Shown in pieces: positions 34,572 to 61,804 of a DNA stretch of 64,000 bases; position 1 is the stretch's first letter; each line of letters opens with the position of its first letter. The notes beneath the pieces are model-generated. The model saw only the letters and a list, made by a program, of their open reading frames with translations. It was not told the DNA's origin and made no database searches. Source of the DNA: Clostridiaceae bacterium (GTDB lineage: Bacteria > Bacillota > Clostridia > Acetivibrionales > DUMC01); NCBI GenBank assembly GCA_012840075.1, contig DUMC01000032.1, forward strand, positions 1 to 64,000. The letters are read 5' to 3'. The translations under genes were made by a program, and so were the position numbers.

Positions 34572-36959
34572 ATGAATGAAAAAACCCTGAAGGTTTTGGA
34601 ATTTGATAAAATAATTAACAGGCTTTCTTCCATGGCAGCGTCGCAGCTTGGGAAAGAAATAATTGAGAATTTGGTTCCTTCTACTGATATTGCAGAAGTT
34701 GATGAAATGTTAAAAGAGACTGAAGACGGAGTGAATTATATAATAAAGAGAGGTAATCCGCCTCTTGGTGGTATTCATGATATAAGAAACAGTTTAAAGA
34801 GAGCTGAAATCGGAGCTGTTTTGAGTCAAGGAGAATTACTAAGGATATCCGATGTTCTTAGGCTTTGCAGAAATTTAAAGGCTCATGCTATAGAAAATGT
34901 CAGATCAAAGGAAGATGATGAAAATAATGTAGTTGTTAATTTAATAAACCAACTTACCATAAATAAGCCAATAGAAGAGAAAATAAACCGTGCAATTATC
35001 AGCGAAGAAGAAATGTCTGATGAAGCAAGCCCGTTGCTCGGAAATATAAGAAGGCAGATTAGAAATAAGCAGGAAGTTATAAAAGACAAATTAAATAACA
35101 TGATAAGATCACCTCATTACCTAAAATATTTGCAGGAACCTATAGTCACGATAAGAGCGGGTCGTTATGTAATACCTGTTAAACAGGAATATCGCAGTGA
35201 AGTACCGGGACTGGTACATGATTCTTCTGCCAGCGGAGCTACGGTATATATAGAACCTATGGCTGTTGTAGAGGCAAACAATGAAATAAAGCAACTTCAA
35301 CTAAAAGAGCAGGCTGAAATAGAAAGGATTCTAAAAGAGTTAACTGACGAGGTAATCGGTATACTGCCGGATTTGAAAAACAATATATCTCTTTTAGCAA
35401 AGCTGGACTTTATACTTGCAAAAGCAAACTTCAGCATTCAATACAACGGAGTTAAACCGAACCTCAATACCAACGGTCGTATAAACATAAGAAAAGGAAG
35501 ACATCCGCTTTTAGATCCTAAGACAGTTGTCCCAATTGATTTTTGGGTAGGAGATAAATTTAGCTCTCTTATAATTACCGGACCTAATACCGGGGGAAAA
35601 ACAGTCACTTTAAAAACAGTAGGCTTGCTCACACTGATGGCGCAAGCAGGATTAAATGTTCCTGCATCGGATAATACCGATTTATGTGTATTTAAAAAGA
35701 TATTTGCGGATATCGGTGACGAACAGAGTATAGAACAAAGTTTAAGCACTTTTTCATCACATATGACAAATATAGTGAACATAATTAAGAATTCGGATGA
35801 TAGCTCTCTTATTCTCTTGGATGAGCTGGGAGCCGGAACAGACCCTACAGAAGGTGCAGCACTTGCAATAGCAATACTTGAGGCTCTTCATGAAAAGGGT
35901 TCAATTACTGTAGCTACAACCCATTACAGTGAGCTTAAACTTTATGCAATGACATCAGAATATGCTGAAAATGCAAGTTGCGAATTTGATGTTGAAACAC
36001 TTAGACCGACATATAAGCTGCTGATAGGCATTCCCGGAAAAAGTAATGCTTTTGCAATATCAAAAAAGCTCGGACTTCCGGAATATATACTGGCTAATGC
36101 AAAAAATTATCTTACGAAGGAAAACATAAGATTTGAAGATGTGCTGTTAGAAATAGACAAGGAACGGAAAACAGCCGAAAAGGAAAGAATTAAAGCTGAA
36201 GTGCACAGGCTTGAAATAGAAAGACTTAAAAAGGAATTGGATGAACAAAAAAGAAAATTTGAAGCCGAAAGAGAAAAAATAATGCGTCAAGCTAAAGAAG
36301 AAGCTCGTCGCATAGTTCTCGAAGCTAAAACAGAAGCTGAAAATATAATTGAAGAACTTAGAAGAATTGAAAAAGAAAAAGAAAAATCGGAGAGGAATAA
36401 AGCGATTGAAGCAATAAAAAGTAAGCTGAGGGAAAAAGTTAATGAACTCGATTCATCACTTATTGAAACATTAATGCCAAGACAAGGCTATATAAAACCT
36501 CCTGAAAACCTTAAACCGGGAGACAGCGTATTAATTGTTAATCTAGGACAAAAAGGAATAGTTATAGAGCCTCCGAATAATAACGATGAGGTAGTTGTCC
36601 AGGCAGGAATAATGAAAATAAATGTTCATATCACAAACCTGAAACTGATAGATGAGCAGAGAGCGGAAATTGAGAAAATTGGCTCTGGTGAGATCGGAAA
36701 GTCAAAAGCTGTAAATATATCTCCGGAGATTGATTTAAGAGGATTAAATTTGGATGATGCCATAATTAGCGTAGATAAATATTTAGACGATGCGTCAATG
36801 ACCGGGTTGAAAACAGTAACTATTATCCACGGCAAAGGTACGGGAATTCTAAGAGCAGGTATTCAAAAACATTTGAGAACAAATCCTCATGTGAAATCTT
36901 TCAGACCAGGTAAATTCGGAGAGGGTGAAACCGGAGTAACAATTGTGGAGTTGAAGTAA
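34572..36959 (+). CDS. mutS2: MutS2 family endonuclease / ribosome-rescue factor
   Basis: A 795-residue MutS2 protein. In order: core and lever region, P-loop ATPase with Walker A GPNTGGKT (about residue 337) and Walker B LILLDELGAGTDPTEG, a signature TTHYSELK, a long Lys/Glu-rich coiled coil (about 510-640), a KOW-like segment (PGDSVLIVNLGQKGIV) and a C-terminal Smr nuclease domain (EIDLRGLNLDDAI, HGKGTGILR). Unlike MutS it has no mismatch-recognition domain. It is known to suppress recombination in some bacteria and to split collided ribosomes in B. subtilis. Start ATG 34572 with GGGAG upstream; TTG 34566 is an alternative. Confidence 0.95.
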   Translation: MNEKTLKVLEFDKIINRLSSMAASQLGKEIIENLVPSTDIAEVDEMLKETEDGVNYIIKRGNPPLGGIHDIRNSLKRAEIGAVLSQGELLRISDVLRLCRNLKAHAIENVRSKEDDENNVVVNLINQLTINKPIEEKINRAIISEEEMSDEASPLLGNIRRQIRNKQEVIKDKLNNMIRSPHYLKYLQEPIVTIRAGRYVIPVKQEYRSEVPGLVHDSSASGATVYIEPMAVVEANNEIKQLQLKEQAEIERILKELTDEVIGILPDLKNNISLLAKLDFILAKANFSIQYNGVKPNLNTNGRINIRKGRHPLLDPKTVVPIDFWVGDKFSSLIITGPNTGGKTVTLKTVGLLTLMAQAGLNVPASDNTDLCVFKKIFADIGDEQSIEQSLSTFSSHMTNIVNIIKNSDDSSLILLDELGAGTDPTEGAALAIAILEALHEKGSITVATTHYSELKLYAMTSEYAENASCEFDVETLRPTYKLLIGIPGKSNAFAISKKLGLPEYILANAKNYLTKENIRFEDVLLEIDKERKTAEKERIKAEVHRLEIERLKKELDEQKRKFEAEREKIMRQAKEEARRIVLEAKTEAENIIEELRRIEKEKEKSERNKAIEAIKSKLREKVNELDSSLIETLMPRQGYIKPPENLKPGDSVLIVNLGQKGIVIEPPNNNDEVVVQAGIMKINVHITNLKLIDEQRAEIEKIGSGEIGKSKAVNISPEIDLRGLNLDDAIISVDKYLDDASMTGLKTVTIIHGKGTGILRAGIQKHLRTNPHVKSFRPGKFGEGETGVTIVELK

Positions 36960-54050: not shown

Positions 54051-54184
54051 AATTATAAAGTGTCGGAAAAGAGCGAGCATAAACGGAAAAGTACCTGGCT
54101 GGTTACTCAAAAGTAGTTTACGGATTATTTGGAAGAATAACCGTTAATTTTAAGTTCAGGTTATAAATTGGGAGAGATAAATTG

Positions 54185-55273
54185 ATGCGTTCTGTTGATA
54201 AGTTTGATATTGGTTTTATAAAAAGAAGAAAAACGAAGAAAATAAGAATCGGAGATATTTTTATCGGCGGAGATTCACATATTGCCGTGCAATCAATGAC
54301 AAACACAGATACCCGTGATGTTAATGCGACCGTTAACCAAATAAGAAGACTGGAAGATGAAGGATGCGAGATTGTGAGGGTTGCCGTGCCTGATATGGAG
54401 GCAGCCGTTGCCATAAAGGAAATCAAAAAAGAAATTAGGATTCCGCTTGTTGCCGATATACATTTTGATTATAGGCTGGCTATAGCAAGCATGGAAAACG
54501 GTGCAGATAAAATAAGAATTAACCCTGGAAATATAGGCGGTAAAGAAAGGGTAAAGCAAGTAGTTGAAGTAGCTCGTGCCATGGATATTCCAATACGCAT
54601 AGGTGTTAACTCAGGATCCGTAGAAAAACACATAATTGAAAAGTACGGTGGAGTAACTCCAGAAGGTATGGTAGAAAGCACCGTTAATAGTGTTAGATTA
54701 TTAGAGGATTTCAACTTTGACAAAATTGTTATTTCGGTAAAAGCATCAAATGTACCTATGACAATAGCCGCTTATAGGTTAATATCCGAGACTTTGGATT
54801 ATCCCTTGCATTTAGGAGTAACAGAAGCCGGAACTCCATTTAGAGGCACTATTAAGTCTTCTGTTGCCCTGGGATGTTTATTGTCAGAAGGAATCGGCGA
54901 TACAATAAGAGTATCTCTTACAGGAGATCCGGTAGAAGAAGTGAGAGTAGGGCATGAAATATTAAAGGCACTTGAGCTTGAAAAAAAAGGTGTTGAAATA
55001 GTATCTTGTCCTACATGCGGCAGGTGTAACATTAACCTCATCGATATAGCAGAAAAAGTTGAAAAAAATCTTAAGAATTACAAAAAGAATGTAAAAATAG
55101 CCATAATGGGTTGTGCAGTAAACGGACCGGGAGAAGCAAGGGATGCGGATATAGGAATAGCAGGGGGAAAATGTGAGGCATTACTGTTTAAAAAAGGTAA
55201 AATTATAAGAAAGATATCGGAGGACAGAATTGCAGAAGAGCTAATTGAAGAGATTCTTAACTCTGACTTTTAG
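54185..55273 (+). CDS. ispG: 4-hydroxy-3-methylbut-2-enyl diphosphate synthase
   Basis: Penultimate step of the MEP pathway, converting MEcPP to HMBPP with a [4Fe-4S] cluster. It has 362 residues, the short bacterial form without the plant-type insert. N-terminal TIM barrel: GGDSHIAVQSMTNTDTRDV, PLVADIHFDYRLA, RINPGNIGGKERV, HLGVTEAGTPFRGTIKSS. C-terminal cluster ligands: CPTCGRC and GCAVNGPGEARDADIG. The start is ATG 54185 after GGGAGAG; TTG 54182 is adjacent. There is a gap of 134 nt from rseP. Confidence 0.96.
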   Translation: MRSVDKFDIGFIKRRKTKKIRIGDIFIGGDSHIAVQSMTNTDTRDVNATVNQIRRLEDEGCEIVRVAVPDMEAAVAIKEIKKEIRIPLVADIHFDYRLAIASMENGADKIRINPGNIGGKERVKQVVEVARAMDIPIRIGVNSGSVEKHIIEKYGGVTPEGMVESTVNSVRLLEDFNFDKIVISVKASNVPMTIAAYRLISETLDYPLHLGVTEAGTPFRGTIKSSVALGCLLSEGIGDTIRVSLTGDPVEEVRVGHEILKALELEKKGVEIVSCPTCGRCNINLIDIAEKVEKNLKNYKKNVKIAIMGCAVNGPGEARDADIGIAGGKCEALLFKKGKIIRKISEDRIAEELIEEILNSDF

Positions 55274-56138: not shown

Positions 56139-59100
56139 ATGCAAGAATTGGCGTTTAAGGATGGCTTTGCAAAAATATTATCTAAAGAGGCATTAGATGT
56201 TCAGGATATAAGAACCTTATTTTCCAATGTTAAAGTACAGGAGATCAATTTTTATAAAAAGTCAAAGAAAATGGAAGTTAAAATTATATCTGACAGATTA
56301 ATACCGGCGCAAACAATAGCAGAAATAGAAGAGAGGTTTGCGGGATATTTTTGTCTTGATTGCGTAGATATAAGAATAAAGTATAAAATTGACGAAGAAT
56401 TTGAGGAATTACTTTACTCTTACTGGGATGATGTAGTATTTTGTGTAGGAAGAAAACTTGCAACAAGCCGTGGACTACTCTCGGGTTGTGATTGGAGCCT
56501 ATTAGGAAATAAACTTACCGTTCATTTAAAAACGAAGGGTGCTAATATTCTTAATGCTCAAAGATGCGGAGAATACATTGAAGACATAATTGAAGATTTT
56601 TTTTCCAAAAAAGTCAGGGTGGAATTTATTGATTGTGTAATTGATGAAAACTATAACAATAAATACGTTGAAGAAAAAAAAGCACAAGAAGAAAAGATTT
56701 TGAAGAATGTCATTTACATGGCAGGTAATAGTGAAAAAAGAAAAAAGAAATCCCAAGAATCAGAAAAAGAAAGTGAAAATAATGTGATTCTTGGTAAAGA
56801 TTTTAAAGATGAAATATTGAAAATGAAAGACGTTAATCAAGATTCCGGAAAGATTGCAATAAAAGGTGAGATATTAAATGTTGATTCAAGAGAGATAAGA
56901 GGAGAAAAATACTTATTTATATTTGATATAACAGATAAAACAAATTCCTTCACTGTTAAATTTTTTATTAAAAAAGAAAAATACGAAGAAATTAAAGACA
57001 GAATCAAGCCGGGAATAACAGTAAAAGTCCGTGGGGAAACGGTATATGATAAATTTGCCGGAGAAGTAATCATAATGGCAACAGATATTGTCAAAAGAGA
57101 GAATCAAAATCAGCGAATTGATGCCGCACCGGAGAAAAGAATAGAGCTGCATTTACATACTCAAATGAGTTCCATGGACGGAGTAACTCCCGTGGAAGAG
57201 CTGGTCAAAAGAGCCGCCGAATGGGGTCATAAAGCTATTGCCGTAACGGACCACGGGGTGGTACAAGCTTATCCGGGAGCTTCCGAAGCATCTTCAAAAT
57301 ACAAGATTAAAATTATATACGGTGTTGAATGCTATTTAGTTGATGATACGAAAGATAAAAATTTTGATTTTACAAAAGCGAAATCTTACCATGCAATTAT
57401 ACTTGTAAAGAATACAACGGGATTGAAAAACCTTTATAAACTAATATCCCAATCCCATCTTAATTATTTTTATAAAAGACCCAGGATGACTAAGAGCATG
57501 ATAATGGAACACCGCGAAGGGCTAATATTAGGCACTGCATGTGAAGCAGGTGAATTATACACCGCTTTCTTAAATAATGCCGATGAAGATGAAATAATAA
57601 GAATTGCAAGTTTTTATGATTATTTGGAAATACAACCTTTGGATAATAACCAGTTTCTTGTAAATGAAGGGAAGGTTGAAAGTAGGGAAGCATTAATAGA
57701 AATTAATAAAAAGATAGTAGAATTGGGAGAAAGGATAAATAAACCTGTTGTTGCCACCTGTGATGTCCATTTTATGGATCCGGAAGATGAAATATTCAGA
57801 CGTATACTTATGGCAGGACAGGGTTATGATGATGCGGACAAGCAAGCACCGCTATATTTTAGAACAACAGATGAAATGCTGGAGGAGTTTTCTTATCTTG
57901 GGACTCAAAAAGCATATGAAGTTGTAGTTATAAATCCTAATAAGATCAACGATATGGTCGAGGATATTGCTCCTATTCCCGAAGGTACTTTTCCTCCCAA
58001 AATTGAAGGTGCTGAGGATGAGATTAAAAATATATCCTTACAGCAAGCAAAAGAATTATATGGAGATCCATTGCCTCAAATAGTTGAAGAGAGACTATGG
58101 AAGGAACTTGATTCAATAATTAAAAATGGATTCTCAGTTATGTATCTTATTGCGATGAAGCTGGTAAAAAAATCTTTAAGCGACGGTTATCTTGTAGGAT
58201 CAAGGGGATCCGTGGGATCTTCGTTTGTCGCTTATCTTACGGGTATAACTGAAGTGAATCCGTTGCAAGCTCATTACTTATGCAGAAAATGCAAATATTC
58301 GGAATTCATTACTGACGGAAGCGTTGACTGCGGGCTGGATTTAGAGGATAAAAACTGTCCTGTTTGCGGAGAAAAGCTTGGTAAAGGTGGTTATGACATA
58401 CCTTTTGAAACTTTTCTAGGTTTCAACGGCGATAAAGAACCTGATATTGACTTAAATTTCTCAGGTGAATATCAGCCAGTAGCGCATAAATATGTAGAAG
58501 AATTATTCGGTGAAGGGCATGTTTTTAGAGCCGGTACCATTGCATCGGTGGCTGAAAAAACTGCTTACGGATTTGTGAAAAAATATCTTGATGAAAGAAG
58601 CATTATTACAACAAATGCAGAACTAAACCGCTTGATAAAAGGATGTACAGGTGTGAAAAGAACCACCGGCCAGCATCCCGGAGGAGTTATGATTATTCCT
58701 CAGGACAAGGAGATATATGATTTTACGCCAATACAATATCCTGCCGATGATGTTGATGCCAGGAACATTACTACCCATTTTGACTATAACTTTCTGCATG
58801 GAAGTATATTAAAGCTTGATATATTAGGACATGATGACCCGACTACAATTAAAATGTTAGAGAACTTGACCGGTGTTAATGCCAGGGAAATTCCACTGGA
58901 TGATAAGGATACAATGGAAATATTTAGCAGTACAAAATCATTAGGAGTCACCCCGGAAGAAATAAACAGTGAAGTAGGAACTATAGGTATACCTGAGTTC
59001 GGTACAAAATTTGTAAGGCAAATGCTTGTTGAAACCAGACCCAAGACTATGTCTGAGCTTATAAAAATATCAGGTTTGTCCCATGGAACCGATGTATGGT

Positions 59101-59861
59101 TAAATAATGCTCAGGATTTGATAAGGAGCAATATCGCCACTCTTTCCGAGGTAATATGTACAAGGGACGACATTATGCTTTACCTCTTACATTCAGGGCT
59201 ACCTCCAATAACCGCTTTTAAAATAATGGAAGATGTAAGAAAGGGTAAAGGTCTAAAACCGGAGTACGTAGAAATAATGCGATCAAATAATGTGCCGGAA
59301 TGGTACATTGAATCCTGTAAAAAAATAAAGTATATGTTTCCGAAAGCTCACGCAGCAGCTTATGTAATGATGGCATTCAGGATAGCCTGGTTTAAAGTTC
59401 ATTATCCTCTGGAATTTTATGCTACTTATTTAACCGTAAAAGCCGATGAATTTGATGCTGACATTATGACTCAATCTCACGAAAAAATAAGGGAGAAAAT
59501 AAAGGAAATGGAAGAGACAGGCAACAATCTTTCACAAAAAGATAAAAACGTATTAACTATATTGGAAGTAATAAATGAAATGTATGCAAGGGGAATAAGA
59601 TTTCTTAAAACTGATCTTTATAAATCAGACGCAAAAATATTTCTTATTGAAAACGGAAGCATAAGACCACCGCTTAATGGTCTCCCAGGATTGGGAATTG
59701 CGGCAGCCCAAAGCATTGTAGAAGAAAGAAAAAAGAGAAAATTTTCTTCAGTAGAGGACCTGCGGCTCAGAACAAAAGTTGGTAAAAACGTTATTGATAT
59801 TTTAAGACAGCATAAATGCCTTGAAGGGTTACCGGAAAGTGACCAGATCAGCTTATTTTAA
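56139..59861 (+). CDS. polC: PolC-type replicative DNA polymerase III alpha, lacking the DnaQ-like exonuclease domain
   Basis: The main replicase of low-GC Gram-positives. It has 1240 residues, about 200 fewer than B. subtilis PolC. Domains: N-terminal domain (1-220), OB fold (about 235-325), PHP (about 335-550), polymerase core (about 600-1150) with CRKC...CPVC zinc knuckle, PDIDLNFSGEYQP and the (HhH)2 C-terminus ending DQISLF. In B. subtilis the 3'-5' exonuclease is inserted in PHP after YGMEANLVDD; here YGVECYLVDD (394-403) is followed within 15 residues by SYHAI, so the whole exonuclease is missing. The nine canonical PHP metal ligands are all present: H338, H340, D347, H372, E397, H418, C468, D542, H544. 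No exonuclease motif lies elsewhere in the protein. AAGGGG lies 8 nt before the ATG. Confidence 0.95.
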   Translation: MQELAFKDGFAKILSKEALDVQDIRTLFSNVKVQEINFYKKSKKMEVKIISDRLIPAQTIAEIEERFAGYFCLDCVDIRIKYKIDEEFEELLYSYWDDVVFCVGRKLATSRGLLSGCDWSLLGNKLTVHLKTKGANILNAQRCGEYIEDIIEDFFSKKVRVEFIDCVIDENYNNKYVEEKKAQEEKILKNVIYMAGNSEKRKKKSQESEKESENNVILGKDFKDEILKMKDVNQDSGKIAIKGEILNVDSREIRGEKYLFIFDITDKTNSFTVKFFIKKEKYEEIKDRIKPGITVKVRGETVYDKFAGEVIIMATDIVKRENQNQRIDAAPEKRIELHLHTQMSSMDGVTPVEELVKRAAEWGHKAIAVTDHGVVQAYPGASEASSKYKIKIIYGVECYLVDDTKDKNFDFTKAKSYHAIILVKNTTGLKNLYKLISQSHLNYFYKRPRMTKSMIMEHREGLILGTACEAGELYTAFLNNADEDEIIRIASFYDYLEIQPLDNNQFLVNEGKVESREALIEINKKIVELGERINKPVVATCDVHFMDPEDEIFRRILMAGQGYDDADKQAPLYFRTTDEMLEEFSYLGTQKAYEVVVINPNKINDMVEDIAPIPEGTFPPKIEGAEDEIKNISLQQAKELYGDPLPQIVEERLWKELDSIIKNGFSVMYLIAMKLVKKSLSDGYLVGSRGSVGSSFVAYLTGITEVNPLQAHYLCRKCKYSEFITDGSVDCGLDLEDKNCPVCGEKLGKGGYDIPFETFLGFNGDKEPDIDLNFSGEYQPVAHKYVEELFGEGHVFRAGTIASVAEKTAYGFVKKYLDERSIITTNAELNRLIKGCTGVKRTTGQHPGGVMIIPQDKEIYDFTPIQYPADDVDARNITTHFDYNFLHGSILKLDILGHDDPTTIKMLENLTGVNAREIPLDDKDTMEIFSSTKSLGVTPEEINSEVGTIGIPEFGTKFVRQMLVETRPKTMSELIKISGLSHGTDVWLNNAQDLIRSNIATLSEVICTRDDIMLYLLHSGLPPITAFKIMEDVRKGKGLKPEYVEIMRSNNVPEWYIESCKKIKYMFPKAHAAAYVMMAFRIAWFKVHYPLEFYATYLTVKADEFDADIMTQSHEKIREKIKEMEETGNNLSQKDKNVLTILEVINEMYARGIRFLKTDLYKSDAKIFLIENGSIRPPLNGLPGLGIAAAQSIVEERKKRKFSSVEDLRLRTKVGKNVIDILRQHKCLEGLPESDQISLF

Positions 59862-59946: not shown

Positions 59947-60098
59947 ATACTTGGTATTTACTCAAAAGCTAATATTATTTACAAAACGCTAAAAATACAA
60001 GAGCTACTTCAAATTTTTTCGTTTAGGAAGAAGTTTTAGATGCTATATAGCTAAGCGTTTGACAAACATTAAAAGCAAAATCTTTGATGAATGATGGT

Positions 60099-60187
60099 AA
60101 AGAGTGGGAAAGTCCCACTCTTTCGCATTATAATAAGCTCATTGAAAGGTGTCTTGTTCTTGTAAAGAAAAGCAAAAGACACCTTTT
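60099..60187 (+). promoter_or_regulatory. Structured leader of the rimP-nusA operon
   Basis: Two stems lie between promoter and rimP. AAAGAGTGGG (60099-60108) pairs perfectly with CCCACTCTTT (60114-60123), loop AAAGT. AAAGGTGTCTT (60145-60155) pairs with AAGACACCTTT (60176-60186). The second is followed by only one T then ACAAC, so it would be at best a weak terminator. Feedback by NusA or another product is possible (inference). Confidence 0.6.
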
Positions 60188-60215
60188 ACAACGTATTGAA
60201 AATGGAGGAAATTGT

Positions 60216-60680
60216 ATGTCGAAAAAAAAGATTGAAAATCAGGTTGAAGAGCTTGTATTACCGATACTCGAAGAAAGAGCTTTTGATTTGGTTGATGTAG
60301 AATTCGTTAAAGAAGGCAGGAATTGGTACCTGAGAGTGTATATAGATAAACCAGGCGGGATAAACATTGATGATTGTGAAGAAGTAAGTATAAGACTCAG
60401 TGAAGAACTGGATAGGGAGGATCCTATAAAACACAGCTATATTTTGGAAGTTTCGTCTCCTGGCTTAGATAGACCTTTAAAAAGGGATAAAGATTTTGAA
60501 AGATACAAAGGAGAGTTAGTTGAAGTAAAGCTTTTTAAAGCTATAGACGGTAAAAAGGTTTTTGAAGGAGAATTGTTAGGATTAATAGACAACAGGATCA
60601 CAATAAAGCAAAGCAATGATCAAATATTATCTTTTAATAAAGAAGAGGTAGCTACTACAAAAAGGATTATTAAGTTTTAA
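60216..60680 (+). CDS. rimP: Ribosome maturation factor RimP
   Basis: A 154-residue 30S assembly factor. N-terminal domain: LVLPILEERAFDLVDVEFVKEGRNWYLRVYIDKPGGI; then DDCEEVSIRLSEELD and SHIYILEVSSPGLDRPLKRDKDF-like signature (SPGLDRPL); and a C-terminal SH3-like domain. GGAGG (60204-60208) is 7 nt before the ATG at 60216; the frame is open upstream to 60084 through the leader hairpins, which is not translated by this reading. Confidence 0.95.
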   Translation: MSKKKIENQVEELVLPILEERAFDLVDVEFVKEGRNWYLRVYIDKPGGINIDDCEEVSIRLSEELDREDPIKHSYILEVSSPGLDRPLKRDKDFERYKGELVEVKLFKAIDGKKVFEGELLGLIDNRITIKQSNDQILSFNKEEVATTKRIIKF

Positions 60681-60703
60681 ACTCAAGGAGGTTGTTGTCA
60701 AGG

Positions 60704-61804
60704 ATGAGTGCGGAATTAATCCATGCTTTAGAGCAGTTGGAAAAGGAAAAGGGTATAAATAAGGAATTGTTGATAGATGCGATTGAAGCAGCTTTATTGT
60801 CTGCTTATAAAAAGAACTTTGGTACAGGGCAAAATGTCAGAATAAATATAGATCACGATACTGGAGAGGTTAAAGTATTTGCACTTAAGAAGGTTACTGC
60901 CGTTCCTCAAAACGAGAAGACGGAAATTTCCGTAGAATCTGCAAGAAAAATAAATGTCAGAGCCCAGGAGAATGATGTTATAGAGGTGGAAGTAACACCG
61001 AGAAAATTTGGAAGAATTGCTGCTCAAGCTGCAAAACAGGTAGTTGTTCAAAGAATTAAGGAAGCAGAAAGAAAATTGATATACGAAGAGTTTTACAATA
61101 AGGAAGGCGATATAGTAAGCGGTTTGGTTCAAAGATATGACAAAAAGAATGTCATAATCGACCTGGGAAAAACGGAAGCAATATTGCTGCCTACTGAACA
61201 GATTCCCGGCGAGGAATACAATTTTAACGACAGAATAAAAGTCTACGTGGTTGAAGTCAAGAAAACTACCAAAGGACCTCAAATATTTGTATCAAGAACT
61301 CATCCTGGACTTGTAAAGAGGTTGTTTGAACTGGAGGTTCCGGAAATTCACGATGGTATAGTTGAAATAAAGGCAATTTCAAGAGAGCCGGGTTCCAGAA
61401 CCAAAATTGCTGTTTTTTCGAGGGATGAAAATGTTGATCCTGTTGGAGCATGCGTCGGTCATAAAGGAACAAGGGTGCAAGCAGTAGTAGACGAGCTCAG
61501 AGGTGAAAAAATAGATATAATAAAGTGGAGTATAAATCCTGCTGAATTTATATCAAGCAGTTTAAGTCCGGCTAAAGTGTTAAGGGTTGACATAAATGAA
61601 GAAGAAAAAAGTGCAAGGGTTATAGTTCCCGATTATCAGTTATCCCTTGCAATTGGGAAAGAAGGTCAGAATGCCAGGTTGGCTGCGAAGTTAACAGGTT
61701 GGAAAATTGACATAAAAAGTGAATCACAGTTAAGATCAGAAATAGAAAACCAGTTTTTTAGTACCGGCATAAATAACAATTATGATCAAGGACTTAATGT
61801 ATAG
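60704..61804 (+). CDS. nusA: Transcription termination/antitermination factor NusA
   Basis: A 366-residue RNA polymerase-binding protein. N-terminal domain (ELIHALEQLEKEKGINKELL), S1 domain (GDIVSGLVQRYDKKNVIIDLGKTEAILLP), KH1 (GACVGHKGTRVQAVVDELRGEKIDI) and KH2 (LAIGKEGQNARLAAKLTGWKIDI). It lacks the C-terminal acidic repeats of E. coli, as is usual in Firmicutes. AAGGAGG at 60685-60691 is 12 nt from the ATG at 60704; a TTG at 60695 is an alternative start three residues earlier. Confidence 0.96.
   Translation: MSAELIHALEQLEKEKGINKELLIDAIEAALLSAYKKNFGTGQNVRINIDHDTGEVKVFALKKVTAVPQNEKTEISVESARKINVRAQENDVIEVEVTPRKFGRIAAQAAKQVVVQRIKEAERKLIYEEFYNKEGDIVSGLVQRYDKKNVIIDLGKTEAILLPTEQIPGEEYNFNDRIKVYVVEVKKTTKGPQIFVSRTHPGLVKRLFELEVPEIHDGIVEIKAISREPGSRTKIAVFSRDENVDPVGACVGHKGTRVQAVVDELRGEKIDIIKWSINPAEFISSSLSPAKVLRVDINEEEKSARVIVPDYQLSLAIGKEGQNARLAAKLTGWKIDIKSESQLRSEIENQFFSTGINNNYDQGLNV

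Follow-up and report, generated by a model that had tools for sequence, protein, structure and literature searches.

A PolC without its exonuclease and with a complete PHP metal site in a clostridial draft genome

The first 64,000 nucleotides of contig DUMC01000032.1 (assembly GCA_012840075.1, a Clostridiaceae bacterium; this whole stretch is here called the window) contain polC, which encodes a PolC-type DNA polymerase III alpha subunit of 1240 amino acids (56139..59861, forward strand, ATG start; Pfam and NCBIfam). The protein lacks the DEDDh exonuclease that is inserted in the PHP domain of a typical PolC, and carries all nine metal ligands of the PHP site. The best reading of these facts, reached by elimination and in our judgment somewhat better than an even bet, is that the PHP domain acts as proofreader in this exonuclease-less PolC. 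The same judgment covers the premise that the cell has no PolC other than the one encoded in the window and that its exonuclease was deleted down to a 12-residue loop.

Results

The window PolC

Both PolC family models, each an equivalog, match far above their cut-offs (NF001688, 1666.5 bits against 873; TIGR01405, 1487.3 bits against 1043.45). Pfam recognizes NI, NII, OB, PHP (residues 336-493), Pol3 alpha, finger and HHH domains, and finds no match to RNase_T anywhere in the 1240 residues. A first, sequence-only reading of this DNA had proposed a PolC of this length without a DnaQ-type exonuclease, and Pfam and alignment agree; an exonuclease elsewhere in the protein, which would have spoken against that reading, is not seen by Pfam. 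The PolC-specific N-terminal domains NI and NII (PF14480 and PF11490, within residues 12-207; 56172..56759) and the OB domain (PF01336, residues 240-317; 56856..57089) lie ahead of the PHP domain. The polymerase part (PF07733 and PF17657, residues 629-1042; 58023..59264) includes PDIDLNF at 768-774, and beyond it are a helix-hairpin-helix (HhH) region (PF14579, residues 1152-1231; 59592..59831) and a C-terminal QISLF (59844..59858) that matches the sliding-clamp binding motif (consensus QL[S/D]LF; PMC3919608); all are on the forward strand. N-terminal domains, HhH region and clamp motif are those of PolC-type architecture. The typical arrangement, with a DEDDh exonuclease inserted in PHP, is absent, and the window PolC belongs to the exonuclease-less variant. 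PolCs without the insert are already known, and this protein adds one member.

Details of the insertion site are as follows. YGVECYLVDD occupies residues 394-403 and SYHAI residues 416-420, so that 12 residues (404-415; 57348..57383, forward strand) separate VDD (401-403) from SYH (416-418) at the place where exonuclease-bearing PolCs have a DEDDh domain of ∼200 residues. Exonuclease-intact PolCs have ∼197-232 residues, mostly 203-212, between positions 400 and 416. The insert is therefore missing, as first read, but the gap of 15 residues then given is the distance from D403 to H418. The nine ligands (H338, H340, D347, H372, E397, H418, C468, D542 and H544; 57150..57770, forward strand) are confirmed at those positions by an alignment of PolCs, and complete the pattern HHDHEHCDH of the PHP-type proofreading exonuclease. 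At the D542 position the window PolC reads CDVH, where the sequence-only reading gave GNVH for PolC of Bacillus subtilis. GNVH is indeed found in Geobacillus kaustophilus (3f2b) and in Enterococcus faecium (9qpc; PMC12592400), and Asn also in the Bacilli loci L100 and L103, but L088, from the metagenome-assembled genome of a member of the Alicyclobacillaceae, has Asp and all nine ligands. On these five sequences, together with a 2026 survey, Asn at this position appears to be common, not universal, in Bacilli.

An AlphaFold2 model of residues 228-1240 (mean predicted local distance difference test score 91.8, predicted TM-score 0.82) lies within a root-mean-square deviation (rmsd) of 1.7 Å of 9qpc over 994 residues, and of 2.4 Å of 3f2b, the G. 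kaustophilus PolC with Mg and Zn, over 987 residues. Against DnaE1 of Mycobacterium tuberculosis (5lew) the values are Z 31.2 and rmsd 3.4 Å over 758 residues, a comparison at the level of the fold. The model has the PHP fold of C-family polymerases. Structure prediction, which the sequence-only reading had recommended, thus gives a PolC-like fold near to that of the zinc-bound 3f2b, the comparison being one of overall folds.

Other proofreaders in the genome

The genome to which the window belongs is a draft of 3.78 Mb in 193 contigs, 97% complete. Its C-family polymerases are one PolC and one DnaE (best model NF005298), with an additional weak PHP-only match in an open reading frame (ORF) of 351 amino acids; the DnaE is full length and its PHP site has nine of nine ligands by pairwise alignment. 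A search of this draft for RNase_T (PF00929) at E<=0.001, which was positive in 10 of 14 control genomes, gave no match, and neither did the two other genomes of the same family (three of three without). A profile of 13 PolC exonucleases likewise had no match in the window genome at E<=10; among the six genomes searched with it, weak matches appeared in G058 and G001 (E 0.29 and above). A DEDDh (RNase_T) protein that might edit in trans, in the manner of DnaQ/epsilon, was thus not found in the 97% complete draft. The Pol I ORF (L238 at G000:C129, 967 amino acids) covers just positions 63-149 of the 173 in DNA_pol_A_exo1, and its DxE region reads AIFPIMEDT by eye: the 3′-5′ editing motif appears, on this inspection, to have been lost.

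With no RNase_T match, the Pol I motif apparently gone and the PHP site of DnaE intact, the PHP sites of PolC and DnaE would be the only recognizable replicative proofreaders in the draft genome. The sequence-only reading had left a choice between proofreading by PHP and proofreading by a separate DnaQ-like protein, and had called for a search for stand-alone DnaQ and a second dnaE. That search returned no RNase_T match and one DnaE; the lack of a DnaQ homologue in the draft and the complete PHP ligands favor the first option, although a complete PHP site is not specific to exonuclease loss.

MutS is present in the genome. Within the window, a MutS-family match at 35232-36230, inside an open frame of 797 amino acids, falls below the MutS1 cut-off; we take it to be perhaps MutS2.

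Distribution of exonuclease-less PolC

The architecture itself, which had been put forward as possibly new, was reported in 2013 (Timinskas et al., PMC3919608). Among named relatives, Heliobacterium mobile (L037) has a PolC of this form. Sixty genomes were compared, the window genome among them. A PolC alignment that crosses the insertion site was seen in the window's family (G000, G002 and, on its N-terminal piece, G001) and otherwise in G058 alone, a genome of another order. In the other PolCs readable at the site the match begins at about residue 383-414 with RNase_T just upstream, and the other readable PolCs of the window's order keep the insert. PolC is cut after the site in G003 and G015, with no RNase_T match; in G056 the match begins as late as residue 591, and its contig also has RNase_T close by; no PolC match at E<=1e-150 came from G011 or G057.

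In a sample of the window's class, which to judge by its named relatives is Clostridia, PolC was matched in 228 of 243 genomes, and at least 38 of these (16.7%; hand tally of matches that cross the site) have the exonuclease-less form. The 38 include the window genome; 36 were confirmed by sequence and G235 is a partial match across the site. The count is a lower bound, since PolCs truncated at the site or beyond it (G061, G144, G169, G180, G190, G258 and G269) were left out of it. The proportion is near the 16% given for PolC plus DnaE1 systems (PMC3919608). In this sample of 243, 32 genomes have no RNase_T match (20 directly listed, the other 12 deduced from their absence among the matches). 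By hand tally these comprise 25 with exonuclease-less PolC, two with a decayed insert (G115 and G138), three without a PolC match (G090, G159 and G261) and two with PolC fragments (G169 and G269).

Two further observations concern this sample. Genome G067, whose PolC is exonuclease-less, encodes a DEDDh-type exonuclease of 320 amino acids (L240:815-1777, reverse strand), the C-terminal part of which looks BRCT-like by eye. Separately, two genomes of family f50, G090 and G159, lack both RNase_T and any PolC match at E<=1e-120: PolC may be lost, diverged or unassembled there.

Exonuclease state and PHP state

The state of the exonuclease and of the PHP site was compared in 226 PolCs (223 distinct sequences). 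The set is not random: 80 loci are the best matches of one search and the loci from the 60 genomes are likewise best matches, exonuclease-less and odd PolCs were fetched on purpose (some added after odd families had been seen), and mostly one exonuclease-bearing PolC was included per family. Five loci had been dropped: L001 (a copy of the window), L034 (split by a frameshift), L084 and L104 (at contig ends) and L213 (G001, in two pieces), the first piece of which also lacks the insert and has nine of nine ligands.

The exonuclease is absent from 48 PolCs, all 48 with a complete PHP site, and in a further 11 the insert is decayed, that is, without the DEDDh motif, again with all nine ligands in every one (together 59 of 226, complete in 59 of 59). 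DEDDh is intact in the remaining 167, of which 157 have nine of nine ligands and ten a broken PHP site. Loss of both exonuclease and PHP site was seen in none of the 226. The ten broken sites belong to seven PolCs of family f44 (L207 and L218-L223; 6-8 of nine ligands changed), to L230 of family f51 (three changed) and to two Bacilli, L100 and L103 (Asp to Asn); L198, also of f44, has a complete site, unlike the other seven fetched. Whether or not the exonuclease is present, a complete PHP site is the rule for PolC in this class. The zero count of double losses fits an either-or rule, for which it is weak evidence.

Conservation of the PHP domain was measured as the ratio of PHP identity to polymerase-core identity in PolC pairs binned by core identity, the pairs not being independent. 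This ratio is 0.97-1.05 where the exonuclease is intact, 0.93-1.06 where it is absent and 0.90-1.01 where it is decayed; of the 45 pairs of PHP-broken PolCs, 43 have a ratio of ∼0.66 and two have higher values, 0.79 and 0.84. The idea that PHP conservation tightens after exonuclease loss was rejected: against exonuclease-intact pairs, the ratio of exonuclease-absent pairs is slightly higher below 65% core identity (e.g., 1.04 versus 1.01) and slightly lower above it (0.93 versus 0.98 at 70-80%). The PHP domain thus is constrained where its site is intact and decays where the site is broken, while loss of the exonuclease does not clearly tighten it.

History of exonuclease loss

The best tree (FastTree, polymerase core) requires 13 changes of exonuclease state, and 11 independent pairs lie on well-supported branches; change counts on such trees do not separate gain from loss. 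The trees place the window PolC and L005 among exonuclease-bearing PolCs of the same order, and because of these neighbors, and of the fossil exonucleases described below, the natural reading is that the insert was lost and not that it was never gained. The trees also favor, though they do not settle, a loss in the window's family separate from that in family f23: union of the two in one clade is not quite rejected (approximately unbiased test, p 0.053).

Several PolCs appear to keep a dead exonuclease: one case is clear, seven are moderate and two weak. In the clear one, L224 (G240), the insert is still exonuclease-like and of full length but its catalytic residues are gone (hhalign 97%, E 3.5e-11), with 32% identity over 171 columns to the intact insert of L203. 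In genus g75, seven PolCs (L204, L205 and L225-L229) have inserts of 295-346 residues without DEDDh and a moderate trace (74%, E 2.9e-5); in L150 and L151 of family f50, inserts of 149 and 160 residues, also without DEDDh, give a weak trace (37%, E 3.6e-4). All ten have nine of nine PHP ligands. L152, with a 52-residue linker at the insertion site, was counted with them among the 11 decayed. Dead exonucleases in PolC are apparently undescribed so far: the accessible parts of the literature searched do not mention them, exonuclease-less PolC appears only in PMC3919608, and the accessible text of PMC3656037, PMC12592400 and PMC3774996 adds nothing on either form.

Discussion

Proofreading by the PHP domain would run as follows. 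PolC's inserted DEDDh exonuclease was lost, leaving the 12-residue loop; the primer end may then reach the PHP site and be edited there, an access that we infer from the loop together with Asp542. The PHP domain would be a zinc-dependent 3′-5′ exonuclease during replication, as in M. tuberculosis DnaE1, where nine residues bind three zinc ions and the change D226N abolishes exonuclease activity (PMC5636811); by its place among the nine ligands D542 is the counterpart of D226. In G. kaustophilus PolC, which has one ligand changed, PHP exonuclease activity is reported to be absent, and its DEDD exonuclease sits within a loop next to the PHP site (PMC5636811). Editing could be done by PolC itself and/or via DnaE, which may take part or all of it, with mismatch repair (MutS) as a back-up. 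A PHP site that went on working could explain why the class was able to lose the exonuclease repeatedly. A broader proposal is more tentative, and we place it a little short of an even chance: that in this and several other lineages of the class replicative proofreading is left to the PHP domains of PolC and DnaE alone, that DEDDh and PHP in PolC are alternative proofreaders, each dispensable only while the other is kept, and that loss of DEDDh passes through PolCs with a dead exonuclease.

A number of results weigh against editing by PHP. The correlation that the sequence-only reading proposed, of exonuclease absence with retention of all nine ligands, leans the expected way (Fisher test, p 0.067 two-sided and 0.045 one-sided, relatedness ignored), but with 157 of 167 exonuclease-intact PolCs also at nine of nine a complete site had to be rejected as a marker of exonuclease loss, and a state that is normal in the class gives no strong signal. 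With only four changes of PHP state to draw on, a lineage-aware pair test of exonuclease state against PHP state (p 1) is without power. As the PHP domain is not clearly more conserved without the exonuclease, the fact that it is kept does not point specifically to a new role. In M. tuberculosis, millimolar Mg inhibited the PHP exonuclease (PMC5636811), and a pyrophosphatase role has been claimed for the PHP domain of E. coli DnaE (PMC4822814). Finally, an RNase_T protein is present in 13 of the 38 exonuclease-less genomes (G263 counted on a marginal match, E 8.2e-4).

The pyrophosphatase claim leads to a rival account, unlikely but of real weight, in which PolC does not proofread at all: PHP is kept for structure or pyrophosphate hydrolysis, and DnaE carries out the bulk of synthesis or its accurate part, or corrects PolC errors in trans. 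The constraint on PHP even in exonuclease-intact PolCs leaves room for such a role, the genome's own DnaE is full length with a complete site, and whether DnaE1 normally replicates DNA in cells with both polymerases is a question raised in PMC3919608. Yet the window PolC keeps its polymerase and clamp motifs, and the ten exonuclease-intact PolCs with changed ligands argue that the metal site is dispensable to PolC as such, which fits redundant editing better than a structural or chemical need. We regard as more improbable again a separate proofreader that escaped notice, either a dnaQ in the unassembled part of this 193-contig draft or a trans-acting nuclease from a different family. The RNase_T proteins just counted, which include stand-alone ones of 277 (G063) and 320 (G067) amino acids, lend this some color; but RNase_T is missing from all three genomes of the family and from 25 of the 38, a repeated gap at the same gene is unlikely, and the PolC-exonuclease profile found nothing in the genome itself. 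That an error of assembly or gene calling dropped the exonuclease part is scarcely credible even for a draft, since the open frame is clean and the family genomes G001 and G002 (L213 and L005) share the architecture with loops slightly different in length and sequence.

The interest of the case lies in the usual description of PolC as proofreading via its inserted exonuclease. A natural PolC without the insert, in a genome with no other recognizable DEDD proofreader, is a clean system in which to ask whether the PHP domain of a PolC edits DNA; in the accessible text of PMC3919608 no experimentally characterized PolC plus DnaE1 system was apparent in 2013. PolC is also a drug target (PMC12592400), and it is of practical use to know which clostridia miss one of its domains. 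The main additions made here are that the draft genome gave no RNase_T match, that the exonuclease was lost repeatedly, that some PolCs appear to keep a dead one, and that the sample contains no double loss.

Genomic context of polC

The genes around polC are rseP, ispG, a glycosyltransferase gene, rimP and nusA. Of these, ispG (54182..55273) lies upstream on the forward strand, and rimP (60084..60680) and nusA (60692..61804) downstream on the same strand. Such surroundings are usual for polC in Firmicutes.

Comparison with known systems

The closest known counterparts are the exonuclease-less PolCs of Clostridia and Negativicutes (PMC3919608), which likewise have OB, PHP, polymerase core and HhH without the Exo insert, and a DnaE in the same genome; there is no categorical difference from them, and the window adds one lineage, comprising two genera of one family. 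The 3f2b construct of G. kaustophilus PolC has the same overall fold and also lacks Exo, but there the exonuclease was removed by design, in contrast to its natural absence from the window PolC, and the G. kaustophilus protein has Asn where the window has Asp542. E. faecium PolC (9qpc) carries its exonuclease between PHP strands 3 and 4 (PMC12592400) and Asn in the PHP site; the window PolC has neither. With M. tuberculosis DnaE1 (5lew) it shares the nine ligands, including the Asp needed for activity. That enzyme is of DnaE type and has a 29-residue loop, whereas the window protein is of PolC type, with 12 residues from VDD to SYH, and is known from its sequence and a model.

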